Shown piece after piece: positions 2,961 through 45,025 of a DNA stretch of 62,216 bases. Numbering within the stretch: the first letter of the stretch is position 1; each line of letters begins with the position of its first letter. Under the pieces are notes generated by a model. It saw only the letters and a program-made list of their open reading frames with translations, made no database searches and was not told the DNA's origin. Made by a program: the position numbers and the translations under genes. Source of the stretch: a virus; IMG/VR virus record IMGVR_UViG_3300046357_000001, positions 1 through 62,216 of that record; one strand, written 5' to 3'.

Positions 2961-3399
2961 AACCCTGTCAGGATTAATCCTGCCCCCGGGCATCGCCCTA
3001 CCAACCCACATTCAACCTATGGAAACACCGGAAGAAAGTGCTGACGACGAAACCAAAGCTGGAGCACTACCAACACCAACAGGTTGGAAGATTCTCTGCG
3101 TGGTCCCCGAAGTGGATGCGAAACTCGCGGGCACAACCCTCGACTTAGTTCGTGACACGGCCTCAATGCGTGGTGAAGAGCACGGCACAACCGTGTTGTT
3201 TGTCTTGCGCACAGGACCAGACGTGTACAAAGACACTACCAAGTTCCCCACAGGCGCTTGGTGTAAAGACGGTGACTTCGTGCTCGTGCGTACATATACC
3301 GGTACGCGTTTCAAGATTTTCGGTAAAGAATTCCGCCTGATTAACGACGATCAAGTGGAAGCTGTTGTTATGGACCCCCGCGGATTAACCCGCGCATAA
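2950..3399 (+). CDS. GroES-like co-chaperonin (Cpn10 fold)
   Basis: A 149-residue protein. After a ~40-residue Pro-rich leader, residues ~42-145 follow the GroES plan: GWKILCVV (strand 1), a loop region with RDTASMRGEEHG where GroES has its mobile loop, a middle segment with GDFVLVRTYTG (compare GD-VIFNDG), then FRLINDDQVEAVV, matching the GroES ending VLIMSESDILAIV. Phage GroES homologues (such as T4 gp31) partner with the host GroEL to fold the capsid protein, and this gene lies just before scaffold and capsid genes, which fits. ATG at 2950 is chosen over an upstream in-frame start because it follows the previous gene's end closely. The family call is by motif order only. Confidence 0.6.
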   Translation: MTTETLSGLILPPGIALPTHIQPMETPEESADDETKAGALPTPTGWKILCVVPEVDAKLAGTTLDLVRDTASMRGEEHGTTVLFVLRTGPDVYKDTTKFPTGAWCKDGDFVLVRTYTGTRFKIFGKEFRLINDDQVEAVVMDPRGLTRA

Positions 3400-41363: not shown

Positions 41364-43793
41364 TTAAGATTTAATTTCTGTGTCAAACAATTGGGTTAGT
41401 AGTGAGTGGTCACTAACCTTTGTTTCTAATGCTTTAAACATCTTTTTCTCAATCGGTGAGCCTTGGATGTGGATGACAGTCACTTTGTCGGACGTCTGTC
41501 CCTTGCGGTCAGCACGCGCACAACACTGCACATATTGCTCCACAGACATCAACGGACCGTAGAACACAACCGTGTCGGCAGCAGTCAAGGTAATACCGTG
41601 AGCAGATGCTTGGGGCTGCATCACAAGGACGCGTGGGTCTGGGTCAGTCTGGAACCTACGGATGATGTCACCACGCTTGGAGGCAGGCACGTCACCACGA
41701 ATCATCTCTGCGCTGATACCTTTCTTCAATAGGTAGTTGTGGATGTTGTCGATACTACTGGTGAACAACGCGAAGACCAATACCTTGCGAGTCGTCTCTT
41801 CCAAGATTTCCTCCAGTACCGCCAAGCGAGGCGCCGCATCAAACTCAACCACTTCACCGTTGTCGGTGTAGGCAGCGCCACAACTGATCTGCAACAACTT
41901 CGATACACCCGCCGCCGCATTGACTGCACTGATAGTCTCGCCGCCAGTTTGAATCAGCATACGGTCTTTCAAATGCTCGTAGTACTTCTTCTGTTGCGGC
42001 GTCATCGGCACTTCACGCGTCATCGTCACCACAGGTGGCAGGTCCAAGCATTCAGCCTTAGTGAAACGAATGGCGGGTTGTAACGCCTCGAACACTGTGT
42101 CTCCTGCGTTAGCCTTCGGAGCCCACTTGAACATAGTGATCTTGTTCAGTACTTTGTCGCGCCATGCTGTGTAGAACTTAGGTACGTTGGTAGGGTTGAC
42201 CAGCTTGGCCAGCCCATATGCGTCAGCAGGCGACTGTGATGCAGGTGTACCAGTCATCATCCACAACAACGTCTCAGGCTTGATGATGGATGCCAGCGCC
42301 TTCCAGCGCCGAGTAGTAACGGTCTTGTATGCGTTGCAGTTGTGTACTAACCAGTGATCCCCAACAAAGTAGTTAGGTGTTCCCGCAACTTCGAGGTTGT
42401 AGACAGCTTCACCGTCTGGGCATTCGATATGCGAAACACTTTCCACCCAAGCGTTTCCAGCTTGGTCTCCTTCTTCCGGTCTTGCGCTTGGCGTGCTGTC
42501 GCTGTATGACTCCCCCCGTCCACCTCCAGCCCTATCTTGAGGTGCGGCAATGCGAAGTCGAGCTTGTAGTTCGTAGGAAAGCCTTGCTGCCTCTTTCCCA
42601 ACGCTACGGGGTAGTTCCATACCCAACCCACAGGCAAGACCTTGGAAATCAAACACTCTGTTGGAGTCATCCCCGTGCCATTGCCGCCCCGCACCTTGGG
42701 TTTGAGCCCCAGCGCCTTTGCTGCCGCTGACAGTTTCGCTCGGTGTTCCGCAGTCTTTGGCCCCGAAGGTTTCCCCCGCTGCTCGTGTGGCATTTCGCAA
42801 AAGTAGCTCTTGCTGGGGTTCAGTAAGTGCCATCTCTTCCGTGCGCAGGATTTGGAGCAGGTCTGTCCAAGCGCCTTTTGGTACTTTTGCGCCCATGTGT
42901 ACCGGGATTGTGGAAAGTGGTACTCCTGCCCGCAAACAGGACAGTTCAAGACCAGATATAAGCCGTCTACCCGTAAGATTTTTGGCACACATCCATCCAG
43001 CGTCTGTGAAGAATGGGTGCTCTGGGGTGCACCGAATTGTTTTTCCGTTTCCAAGTTTGACCTCGACAATCTGTTTAGTGGTATTGCGTACAAGCCTGTT
43101 TATACCCATTACTCCGTCAGATGTCAAGACCTTATCCCCCATTTGCAGTTGTTCTATGGGCCGTCTACCTTGTGGGGTAGCCACCAAAGTCCCTGCTACA
43201 AAGCACTCATCAACGATAACCAGATCGAACTTGCCGTTGGCGTTTATCTCATCAGCAATTAAGTTCAAGCCTTCGTAGTTGGTAATGACGAACTCATAGT
43301 TCTGTTGCACCATCTCGATACGACGCGATGCTTGTGGGTGGTGGGCGATGATCGCGCTACGGTGAATGACGCTTGCGTTCAAGTCCTGCATCCAAGCTGA
43401 CTGCATGATCGACAACGGACACAGCACAAGGACTCGTCTCACTTCACCACGTGTCATCAAGTAGTCCGCGGCCCACAATGCTGAGAGCGTCTTGCCTGTG
43501 CCGGGCTCGCTAAACACGAATGCCTTGCGGTTGAGCGTTAGGAAAGATGCTGTATCAATCTGGTGTGCCATTGGCTTGTGACGGCCGGGCCAGTTATAGC
43601 GGCGTGTGATTGGTGAAGGTACGTCCTTCACCCCTAAGTTTTTAAGCACTCGACATTCGTCTAGTCCCCAGAAAACAGCTACCTCCGCAGACCCGTCTTC
43701 GTATTGCTCGACGACTTTGCTGCGGGGAATGACTGTGTACTTTTCTGGGTTTCTAGTTCGAAGGAGCAGCGCCTTGTCTTCGATGATTTCCAT
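41364..43793 (-). CDS. SNF2/DEAD-type helicase containing an intein
   Basis: An 809-residue precursor. Extein N-part: Walker A SEPGTGKT (95-102), VLVLCPLSIM motif Ia, NYE and FDLVIVDE at 190-196. The intein follows at Cys197 and ends at Asn485; the extein resumes as CNAYKTVTTRRWKAL, so splicing gives IVDECNAYK, the DEAH-box-like Walker B of SNF2-type helicases. Motif III MMTGTPASQSP and motifs V/VI (QPQASAHGITLT, QCCARADRKGQ) follow. The spliced enzyme would be 520 residues. Likely role: unwinding or remodelling in replication or recombination, next to RecB-like and HNH nucleases. GAGAGAAGCA precedes the ATG. Confidence 0.9.
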   Translation of the reverse strand: MEIIEDKALLLRTRNPEKYTVIPRSKVVEQYEDGSAEVAVFWGLDECRVLKNLGVKDVPSPITRRYNWPGRHKPMAHQIDTASFLTLNRKAFVFSEPGTGKTLSALWAADYLMTRGEVRRVLVLCPLSIMQSAWMQDLNASVIHRSAIIAHHPQASRRIEMVQQNYEFVITNYEGLNLIADEINANGKFDLVIVDECFVAGTLVATPQGRRPIEQLQMGDKVLTSDGVMGINRLVRNTTKQIVEVKLGNGKTIRCTPEHPFFTDAGWMCAKNLTGRRLISGLELSCLRAGVPLSTIPVHMGAKVPKGAWTDLLQILRTEEMALTEPQQELLLRNATRAAGETFGAKDCGTPSETVSGSKGAGAQTQGAGRQWHGDDSNRVFDFQGLACGLGMELPRSVGKEAARLSYELQARLRIAAPQDRAGGGRGESYSDSTPSARPEEGDQAGNAWVESVSHIECPDGEAVYNLEVAGTPNYFVGDHWLVHNCNAYKTVTTRRWKALASIIKPETLLWMMTGTPASQSPADAYGLAKLVNPTNVPKFYTAWRDKVLNKITMFKWAPKANAGDTVFEALQPAIRFTKAECLDLPPVVTMTREVPMTPQQKKYYEHLKDRMLIQTGGETISAVNAAAGVSKLLQISCGAAYTDNGEVVEFDAAPRLAVLEEILEETTRKVLVFALFTSSIDNIHNYLLKKGISAEMIRGDVPASKRGDIIRRFQTDPDPRVLVMQPQASAHGITLTAADTVVFYGPLMSVEQYVQCCARADRKGQTSDKVTVIHIQGSPIEKKMFKALETKVSDHSLLTQLFDTEIKS
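42339..43205 (-). mobile_element. Intein in helicase Walker B
   Basis: An 867-base, 289-residue intein (helicase residues 197-485). Block A is CFVAGTLVATPQGRRPIEQL (Cys1), block B has IRCTPEHPFFTDAGW (the TPEH motif with its His), block F/G is VYNLEVAGTPNYFVGDHW then VHN with terminal Asn, and the next extein residue is Cys. These are the residues needed for protein splicing. There is no in-frame LAGLIDADG or HNH domain. The ~150-residue middle (Gly/Arg/Asp/Ser/Gln-rich) is unlike normal folded sequence, because a nuclease gene occupies the DNA in another frame. Confidence 0.93.
42347..43054 (-). CDS. Homing endonuclease (Vsr/DUF559-like) overprinted in helicase intein
   Basis: A same-strand gene wholly inside the intein, in the +1 frame. 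A zinc-finger module is visible (CPVCGQEYHF, then CSKSC about 24 residues later), then a Lys/Arg-rich linker and a Vsr/PD-(D/E)XK-like nuclease: NYKLDFALPHLKIGLEVDGG (active Asp and Glu), QDRKKETKLETLGWKVFRI (Gln, Lys). The frame opens after a TAA at ~43106. TTG at 43054 is preferred (GAGG then 6 bases); TTG at 43093 is also possible. The stop (42347-42349) is 6 bases from the intein end, so blocks F and G are doubly coded. It would promote intein homing into helicase alleles that lack it. Confidence 0.85.
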   Translation of the reverse strand: METEKQFGAPQSTHSSQTLDGCVPKILRVDGLYLVLNCPVCGQEYHFPQSRYTWAQKYQKALGQTCSKSCARKRWHLLNPSKSYFCEMPHEQRGKPSGPKTAEHRAKLSAAAKALGLKPKVRGGNGTGMTPTECLISKVLPVGWVWNYPVALGKRQQGFPTNYKLDFALPHLKIGLEVDGGSHTATARQAQDRKKETKLETLGWKVFRISNAQTVKLSTTSKLREHLTTLLGITG

Positions 43794-43808: not shown

Positions 43809-44048
43809 TTATTTGTTATCGCCTTCGTTTGCTTTCTTGGCACGCAAACGCAAATTGCCCGGAGTTGTCTTACCACCCTTGCGCAGTGGCTTGATGTGGT
43901 CGATGTCCTTACCTGCGCGGTCGATACCCTTCTTGTCAAACAACTGGCGTGCGCGTTGGCGCTCGGATTGGTCAGACCCCGGACCGGACTTGCCGGTCTC
44001 TAGGTCACGTTTGTATTCTTTTGCGTAGTCGCGTTTGCGTGTTGCCAT
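43809..44048 (-). CDS. Small HNH-like endonuclease
   Basis: A 79-residue basic protein with IDHIKPLRKGG then TPGNLRLR, an HNH-like core (first His, then Asn) of the small phage HNH group, although the last His is not obvious. The Lys/Arg-rich N-terminus could grip DNA. Located between the helicase and the RecB-like nuclease. It may aid packaging or be a mobile gene. Start has a SD-like TAATGAAA; call is by motif. Confidence 0.65.
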   Translation of the reverse strand: MATRKRDYAKEYKRDLETGKSGPGSDQSERQRARQLFDKKGIDRAGKDIDHIKPLRKGGKTTPGNLRLRAKKANEGDNK

Positions 44049-44057
44049 GATTTACTT

Positions 44058-44720
44058 TCAGTGTTTTTTGTGGAACTCACAGCCAGTGCAAGGACACCAG
44101 CCGCAGAGCGGGGTACGTGTTGGATTCCATACATCGTTGTCGATGCACGAAGCGATACGGCTAACGCGTTCACGATACTTCCACCATTCGGAGTCCATCT
44201 CGTCAACGTTCATGCTGTGCTTAACCATATCATTCTTGACCACGAAGAGCAACGCTGAGTTGACCTTGCGGATGTGCGGGAAGTGCTTGAATACCATCAC
44301 TGACATGAGGCGTAGCTGGTCACGGTCTGGGTACTTGTTGTTACCCGTCTTGTAGTCCACCACCCATGCAGTCAGGTTCTCGTCATCAATGATGAGCAAG
44401 TCGGCTACGCCCCTCACCCATGCATCTTTGGCAAACCATTCAGTCGGTGTCAGGTCTTCCTTCAGTGTCATCTTGTACTCAGCCAACTTGCGGCCGGGCT
44501 TGTTGATGAGCGCATCGAGCGTGTCCTTAACAAACTCAAACTGCTTGGGCAGCGGTGTGCCCTCACCTACGTAGAGTTCGGCTGCCTTGTGCAGCTCGTT
44601 ACCGTAGCGCGTAGCCTCGGTCTCCACGAATGGGTGCATCTTCAGAATACGTGTGGCGTGATACTTCCGCGCACACTGCTCAAACTCCTTGAGCGATGAA
44701 TGTGACCATGATATTTTCAT
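44058..44720 (-). CDS. RecB-like PD-(D/E)XK nuclease
   Basis: A 220-residue protein. Motifs: WSHSSLKEFEQCARKYH at the start (helix with Cys), GNELHKAAE (conserved His), GVADLLIIDDENLTAWVVDY (catalytic Asp) followed by KTGNNKY (Lys), and a C-terminal cluster CGWCPCTGCEFH, like the Cys-rich iron-sulfur region of Cas4/AddB-type exonucleases. It probably acts in phage recombination or DNA end processing. Its start overlaps the stop of a truncated HNH gene (ATGA). Confidence 0.87.
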   Translation of the reverse strand: MKISWSHSSLKEFEQCARKYHATRILKMHPFVETEATRYGNELHKAAELYVGEGTPLPKQFEFVKDTLDALINKPGRKLAEYKMTLKEDLTPTEWFAKDAWVRGVADLLIIDDENLTAWVVDYKTGNNKYPDRDQLRLMSVMVFKHFPHIRKVNSALLFVVKNDMVKHSMNVDEMDSEWWKYRERVSRIASCIDNDVWNPTRTPLCGWCPCTGCEFHKKH

Positions 44721-45025
44721 AAGTTTCCTGCTGGGTGAAGAATTCGTTTTGCGGTTATGTAGGCAGCATGGGCTTCTTCGGCGGTATCAAAATATCCCAA
44801 GTGCTTTCGCTTCCCATCAACCTTGATGAAAGAAATAAAACGCTTGTGTCGTTTGTGCCAACTAGCGCCTAGTAGTTGCGTTGACTTGTTCTTCGGGCGG
44901 TACGCTTTTTGATTCTGTCCGTTCAACTTGTGGTTGGAAAGGCGTAGGTTCTTAAAGCGGTTATCAAGTGGGTTTCCGTTGATATGGTCAATCATTTCTG
45001 TAGGCCACACCCCCGTCTCAAACAA
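44717..45025 (-). pseudogene. Truncated HNH-AP2 homing endonuclease
   Basis: A 102-residue open frame from a TTG at 45025. It has IDHINGNPLDNRFKNLRL, the second half of an HNH nuclease, then an AP2-like DNA-binding domain (WHKRHKRFISFIKVDGKRKH, LGYFDTAEEAHAAY). The first half of the nuclease, including the HRL-type histidine strand that precedes WLFETGVWP, is missing; upstream in frame there is only KIVWLFETG after a TAA. It is probably a remnant of an invading HNH gene, unlikely to cut DNA. The AP2 part might still bind DNA. Confidence 0.75.

Follow-up and report, generated by a model that had tools for sequence, protein, structure and literature searches.

A viral SNF2-family helicase gene with a probable mobile intein and an entangled, out-of-frame gene for a probable Vsr-like homing endonuclease

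The 62,216-base virus record IMGVR_UViG_3300046357_000001, the whole of which is referred to here as the window, contains on its minus strand a SNF2-family DNA helicase gene interrupted by an intein, and within this intein, in the +1 frame of the helicase, lies a second gene encoding a Vsr-like (DUF559) nuclease. We consider it very probable that the intein is mobile and that the nuclease, entangled with it out of frame, is its homing endonuclease. Both reading frames, their joint conservation, the suppression of silent changes in the two frames, helicase alleles empty of the intein and a wide distribution were observed directly. Splicing, internal initiation, cleavage and homing we infer from the established behaviour of these families. 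The intein, read in the helicase frame, would splice itself out of the helicase at the Walker B (DE^C) site, and the linker DNA together with block F, read in the +1 frame, would function as a separate gene with an internal ribosome-binding site, giving a zinc-finger Vsr-like nuclease. This enzyme would most likely cut intein-free helicase alleles, and repair would then transfer both the intein and the Cys+1 codon into them; where intein alleles have the +1 Cys, Ala is found in the empty ones. Coordinates of the features are shown in Table 1.

The intein bears the block A motif CFVAGT with Cys1 (43205-43188), the block B motif TPEH, the block F motif VYNLEV (from 42404) and the terminal His-Asn, and it is followed by a +1 Cys (42338-42336). 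Its domains were recognised in most of the aligned relatives (TIGR01445 in 44/48 and TIGR01443 in 41/48). In the structural model, residues 11-90 and 261-290 formed two confident HINT parts, with block means of the predicted local distance difference test (pLDDT) of 86-94, mostly about 90, and Foldseek matched the model to the gp41-1 intein (2.9e-7), MchDnaB-1 and Ssp DnaB. The pLDDT of residues 132-253, whose bases encode much of the nuclease, was below 50, and the linker between the HINT halves is probably long and disordered according to this model. With its motifs, its predicted HINT fold and its in-frame insertion at a conserved site for which empty alleles exist, the element is, by sequence and model, an intein of the class 1 HINT type.

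All of the 79 aligned relatives of the nuclease matched PF04480 (DUF559). Judged by conservation alone, D166, E177, H183 and D192 were invariant and D179 was kept in at least 90% of 86 nuclease sequences. When the single nuclease sequence was searched against the PDB, 3hrl was the sole match (E 0.012), and a profile search gave 3hrl at 1e-8 and, weakly, 3r3p (E=1). The nuclease model (pLDDT 84) was closest to I-Bth0305I (3r3p, Z 10.8 over 91 residues), with further matches to 3hrl (10.4), Vsr (1cw0, 9.8; 1vsr, 9.4) and mitoribosomal proteins (Z 10.6 and 10.4); Foldseek matched it to 3r3p with an E of 6e-3 and a probability of 1.00. The alignments to I-Bth0305I and Vsr extended through residues 234-235, and the last helix (residues 223-231) is encoded by the dual-coded bases described below. 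The predicted fold is that of a Vsr-like PD-(D/E)XK homing endonuclease.

A search with the nuclease found 13 loci at 70-75% identity, and in 14/14 loci, including the window, the helicase-plus-intein frame was open and the nuclease lay in the other frame. A like layout was present in seven phage records (Pseudomonas MR14; Vibrio 104E43.1, CP-T1, 1.088.O, 159E43-1b and 1.194.O; Corynebacterium phi673), whose nucleases were about 27-30% identical and in each of which one coding sequence, helicase or unnamed, had been annotated across the region. Profile searches provided 80 viral loci (the best 80 of 128 confirmed, some of them repeating known contigs) and 48 genome loci. Among the 109 tabulated loci of the nuclease search, from phages and bacterial genomes, 108 had a long host open reading frame (ORF), an intein C-terminus and one and the same relative frame, which was maintained down to about 23-30% identity; the exception (L121) was a free-standing DUF559 gene. 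The nuclease was likewise in the +1 frame at 39/39 loci of an intein-based search, in which 39 of 80 loci were examined, the remainder looking like contigs already seen. No in-frame version of the nuclease occurred among the 109 nuclease-search loci or the 39 intein-search loci.

Stop codons were counted in loci gathered through the nuclease and not through an open host frame. In 86 non-redundant loci, the stretch of the final 150 nuclease codons contained 0 host-frame stops vs 644 expected when nuclease-synonymous codons were shuffled, which rules out a chance second ORF, and the third frame had 885 vs 677 expected. L121 and L077 were omitted from this set, the latter failing the end-distance rule; alignments of 86 and of 55 rows served for conservation only, and the domain counts given above came from the alignments of 79 rows (PF04480) and 48 rows (intein domains). 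In L077 the host frame holds an intein ending in VHNS and the nuclease frame continues far beyond the end of the intein and enters the C-extein; the overlap would there extend to the host protein itself.

L113-L119, except L115, are bacterial-genome copies lying in very large ORFs (1,640-2,215 amino acids), with VSNC or VHNC intein ends. L063, L270, L289 and L293 are intein relatives in genes resembling the terminase large subunit, as judged by eye from the flanking residues, and the element may have switched between helicase and terminase-like host genes.

The preliminary description of this DNA had claimed that intein blocks F and G, down to the terminal His-Asn, share their bases with the C-terminus of the nuclease. 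This was right for block F (VYNLEVAGTPNYFVGDHW) and for the residues just before block G, where the nuclease frame reads SNAQTVKLSTTSKLREHLTT (42427-42368) and then LLGITG to 42350. It was wrong for the terminal His-Asn: these codons (42344-42339) lie beyond the nuclease TAG (42349-42347), and neither they nor the +1 Cys codon are nuclease-coding. Since block F also encodes the last helix of the nuclease and the Leu-Val codons of block G contain its stop codon, these bases answer to both proteins, and the proposed mutual constraint between splicing and nuclease residues applies to block F and to the residues immediately ahead of block G, leaving the catalytic His-Asn and Cys+1 outside the overlap. 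The nuclease stop was exactly 8 nucleotides before the intein end in 48/86 loci, and the host codon at that place was CTA, TTA, GTA or ATA in 48/48.

Silent change was suppressed in both frames over 42348-42480, as the same description had predicted. Host-silent four-fold sites showed 0.110 parsimony steps per leaf (17 sites) vs 0.394 in the exteins (p=1.6e-8) and 0.295 in the single-coded intein (p=6e-4), and nuclease-silent sites showed 0.107 (20 sites) vs 0.269 in the nuclease core (p=2e-5). Free host-silent change, which would speak against joint constraint, was seen only outside the nuclease, the Val codon at 42347 varying among GTA, GTC and GTG (diversity 0.66). Among 28 SNF2-family relatives, host-silent four-fold diversity reached about 0.63 in the exteins and 0.52-0.54 in the initial, single-coded part of the intein, as against 0.23 in the F/G stretch (p=4.5e-6 for F/G vs exteins and 0.0016 vs single-coded intein) and 0.146 in the nuclease core; nuclease-silent diversity was 0.12 in F/G vs 0.51 in the core (p=1e-4). 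Several rare host codons were fixed at places where the nuclease profits from them, namely Val GTT (25/25 and 24/24; usage 0.14), Pro CCT (28/28; 0.19) and Glu GAA (28/28; 0.31). In the nuclease core the first positions of the host codons were the most variable (0.469), because they are the third positions of the nuclease codons, and the host protein across the core looks like a linker. F/G was the stretch in which all three codon positions were slow (0.151, 0.142 and 0.262). The overlap had also been called unusually strong; the shared bases are indeed constrained, but this is not special to them, as it runs the whole length of the nuclease and is common to the whole intein class.

An alternative for the F/G stretch is that its nuclease residues are passengers, the C-terminal helix being unneeded and the silent suppression arising from RNA structure or codon bias. 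The weaker suppression in F/G than in the core would fit this, as would the other lineages in which the nuclease stops 44 to 65 nucleotides before the intein end (18/86 loci). However, the nuclease residues K, L, L and L at 42392, 42389, 42377 and 42365 were invariant in the 28 sequences, mostly through rare host codons, silent freedom resumed right after the nuclease stop, and the last helix was predicted at high confidence within the part aligned to I-Bth0305I and Vsr, all of which makes passenger residues an unlikely explanation.

With regard to mobility, among the 80 helicases most similar to the C-extein (the best 80 of at least 600), 78 were intein-free, 77 of the DEANAYK type and one DESNAYK; one of the other two had the intein and one was cut off. 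The nearest helicase among those listed was 93% identical and empty. The inteins of L037 and L040 were 93% identical in helicases only 58% identical, and the helicases of L021 and L031 were 95% identical with inteins 85% identical (nucleotide level in both pairs); intein and extein histories thus disagree. It could be argued that the nuclease is expressed and constrained in a role other than homing, for instance in DNA repair or in defending against rival phages, and that the intein moves passively, given that DUF559 proteins have varied roles and that DUF559 genes without intein motifs occurred at 27/27 more distant loci (the 26 genome loci L123-L148, and L121). We find this improbable, because the subfamily to which the present nuclease belongs was only intein-associated, its fold is closest to a known homing endonuclease, and the intein is sporadic among closely related helicases and, in the first of the pairs just mentioned, far more alike than its hosts.

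The nuclease is probably encoded by a gene of its own, translated from an internal ribosome-binding site, the best start by sequence being the TTG at 43054. GAGGTCAAACTTG stands just ahead of the nuclease. In the relatives the Glu codon of this stretch was GAG in 25/25 and the Leu codon CTT in 23/24; CTT makes up 12% of extein leucine codons and yet is nearly fixed here, suggesting that GAGGT and TTG are being kept. The mean energy of the best ribosome site was -6.6 kcal/mol vs -2.4 in host-synonymous shuffles of 84 of the 86 loci (two without a clear CxxC pair were omitted, and three of the 84 had no candidate start). Other clades had forms like GGAGG...ATG at a different place in the intein. 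A start at 43093, as in a mechanical ORF listing, is unlikely, since a stop lay just downstream in the nuclease frame in 6 of the first 13 relatives.

The same CTT with GAGGT ahead could instead serve programmed +1 ribosomal frameshifting at the conserved GAGGTCAAACTT, which would yield a helicase-IntN-nuclease fusion (IntN, the N-terminal part of the intein) and not a free enzyme. The layout resembles that of prfB, where a Shine-Dalgarno-like stretch is followed by CUU and a stop or slow codon is needed next. Here, however, the next codon is GGA, the start position differs between clades, and seven loci (L015, L016, L017, L106, L108, L115 and L122) have GAGG or AGGAG followed by ATG at the usual spacing, so that no shift is needed; frameshifting is in our estimation quite improbable.

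Several observations weigh against an entangled homing endonuclease gene as proposed here. The ribosome-site signal was significant locus by locus in only 31% of the 84 loci. From the TTG to about 42985, over block B, the nuclease frame is open and its residues vary freely, so that constraint on this N-terminal stretch was rejected and the start may lie further downstream. The F/G stretch contains only 8-9 four-fold host-silent columns, and the sequences, sharing ancestry, are not independent. The inteins may have a shallower genealogy than the exteins, to which the single-coded intein control (p=0.0016; 0.0077) is a partial answer. Finally, some nucleases are broken: L264 and L306, which represent one allele (near 3001-3350), have a stop in the nuclease zinc finger with the host frame open, and L296 (IMGVR_UViG_2900685891_000002, from 3001) has lost the nuclease core by deletion and kept a complete short intein. 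The latter, at the equivalent site, still has pieces of either end of the nuclease in the +1 frame; it is apparently a mini-intein derived from this class, as far as its sequence indicates. The nuclease is thus dispensable in places, which would be expected of an element able to lose its nuclease but not its host frame. That the second frame is merely the decaying relic of an in-frame endonuclease domain shifted by an insertion or deletion, or a sequencing artefact, is scarcely credible: homing endonucleases decay after fixation and these three loci are broken, but the single relative frame of 108/109 loci at about 23-30% identity, the invariant catalytic-type residues, the strong constraint on the nuclease frame and the lack of an in-frame version among the loci examined contradict it.

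Table 1. Features of the helicase gene, its intein and the nested nuclease gene in the window.
Feature	Position	Strand	Basis
SNF2-family DNA helicase ORF (exteins + intein), 809 amino acids	41364..43793	-	PF00176 1.9e-18, PF00271 9.8e-15, phrog_62 3.7e-99
Intein, 289 amino acids, C1...HN, after D-E of helicase motif II (DE^C), +1 residue Cys	42339..43205	-	TIGR01445, PF14890, TIGR01443; HINT fold in model
Intein block B TPEH motif	43017..43028	-	Sequence
Intein terminal His-Asn, single-coded, outside nuclease	42339..42344	-	Coordinates
Shine-Dalgarno-like GAGGT within intein V-E-V-K-L codons (putative ribosome site)	43060..43064	-	Conservation, ribosome-site energy
Nested Vsr-like (DUF559) nuclease gene, +1 frame of helicase, probable TTG start 43054-43052, TAG 42349-42347, 235 amino acids	42347..43054	-	PF04480 5.6e-8, start codon conservation, model pLDDT 84, I-Bth0305I Z 10.8
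Putative nuclease zinc finger CPVC ... CSKSC	42845..42943	-	C41, C66, C70 invariant, C38 at least 90% in 86 sequences
Nuclease catalytic-core motifs NYKLDF ... GLEVDGGSH	42506..42571	-	Y163, D166, E177, G180, H183 invariant in 86 sequences
Dual-coded stretch, intein block F + nuclease C-terminal helix region	42351..42404	-	Substitution analysis, model, coordinates
Nuclease TAG stop, formed from TTA|GTA (Leu-Val) of intein block G	42347..42349	-	Coordinates, codon tables

Other putative nuclease genes are found upstream of the helicase, all on the minus strand. A 79-amino-acid HNH-type protein is encoded directly upstream (43812-44048; PF01844 2.1e-4), a PD-(D/E)XK nuclease at 44061-44720 (PF12705 4.7e-19), and, a few genes upstream, a free-standing putative homing endonuclease of the HNH + AP2 type with a TTG start at 44720-45025 (PF13392 1.3e-8, PF00847 1.3e-5).

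The closest precedent for a hidden out-of-frame homing nuclease is the ShiLan domain, which together with the Pacc40 gp60 insertion represents HNH endonucleases hidden out of frame in phage methylases (PMC11855218). Like the present element, it is sporadic and interrupts a phage gene in frame and free of stops, and when read in a shifted frame it encodes a putative homing nuclease whose end falls at that of the insertion. According to the article describing it, it is not an intein: it lacks a splicing domain and a detectable ribosome site, its nuclease is of the HNH type, and leaderless initiation was proposed (PMC11855218). The present element, unlike ShiLan, has the hallmarks of a true intein, with a Vsr-like nuclease, a predicted internal ribosome site and splicing motifs within the overlap; DUF559 in 79/79 relatives and these motifs rule out a ShiLan-type HNH insertion.

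Canonical inteins with LAGLIDADG or HNH nucleases are likewise mobile, occupy conserved host sites and carry the nuclease between the N and C splicing blocks. In contrast, the nuclease described here is a separate +1-frame gene that overlaps block F and lies outside the intein polypeptide, and its constant +1 frame rules out a canonical intein with an in-frame endonuclease. Fractured genes, reportedly described by Dassa and colleagues in 2009, are said to be split inteins whose halves flank a free-standing Vsr-like endonuclease; as in the present element, a Vsr-like nuclease having a start of its own would lie between the N and C splicing parts. Here, unlike in fractured genes, the host frame is uninterrupted and the contiguous intein is expected to splice in cis, and the open host frame in 86/86 loci over the last 150 nuclease codons rules out a fractured gene or split intein. 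I-Bth0305I (PDB 3r3p), the best structural match of the nuclease model, is a Vsr-like homing endonuclease named in the PDB as a mobile intron protein; it does not overlap an intein, and its sequence similarity is weak (profile E=1).

In the open-access literature we found no description of an out-of-frame nuclease nested within a real intein. It seems likely that the loci reported here represent a class of mobile inteins that is old, unannotated and widespread in phages and bacterial genomes, and that mostly occupies the helicase Walker B site. In this class the homing enzyme would never be in the intein protein; a separate +1-frame gene, served by a ribosome site of its own, would encode it and would overlap block F and part of block G. 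Intein and homing enzyme could then be two genes over shared DNA, down to a splicing motif, and inteins of about 300 amino acids in which no endonuclease domain can be seen may wrongly pass for immobile mini-inteins. The class would also supply free Vsr-like nucleases predicted to recognise the DNA encoding the helicase Walker B motif. With the gene order of fractured genes and its host-frame stops purged, it may bridge the gap to split inteins and would offer a concrete route between contiguous and split forms: if this is true, one gained stop would convert the former into the latter. Finally, the class provides a natural test of how long one sequence can keep two functional proteins, with a parallel in engineered entanglement. 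In STALEMATE, two proteins, one of them an intein-interrupted endonuclease, are encoded in shifted frames over shared bases (PMC12455656). That system is synthetic, whereas the present entanglement is natural and widespread.

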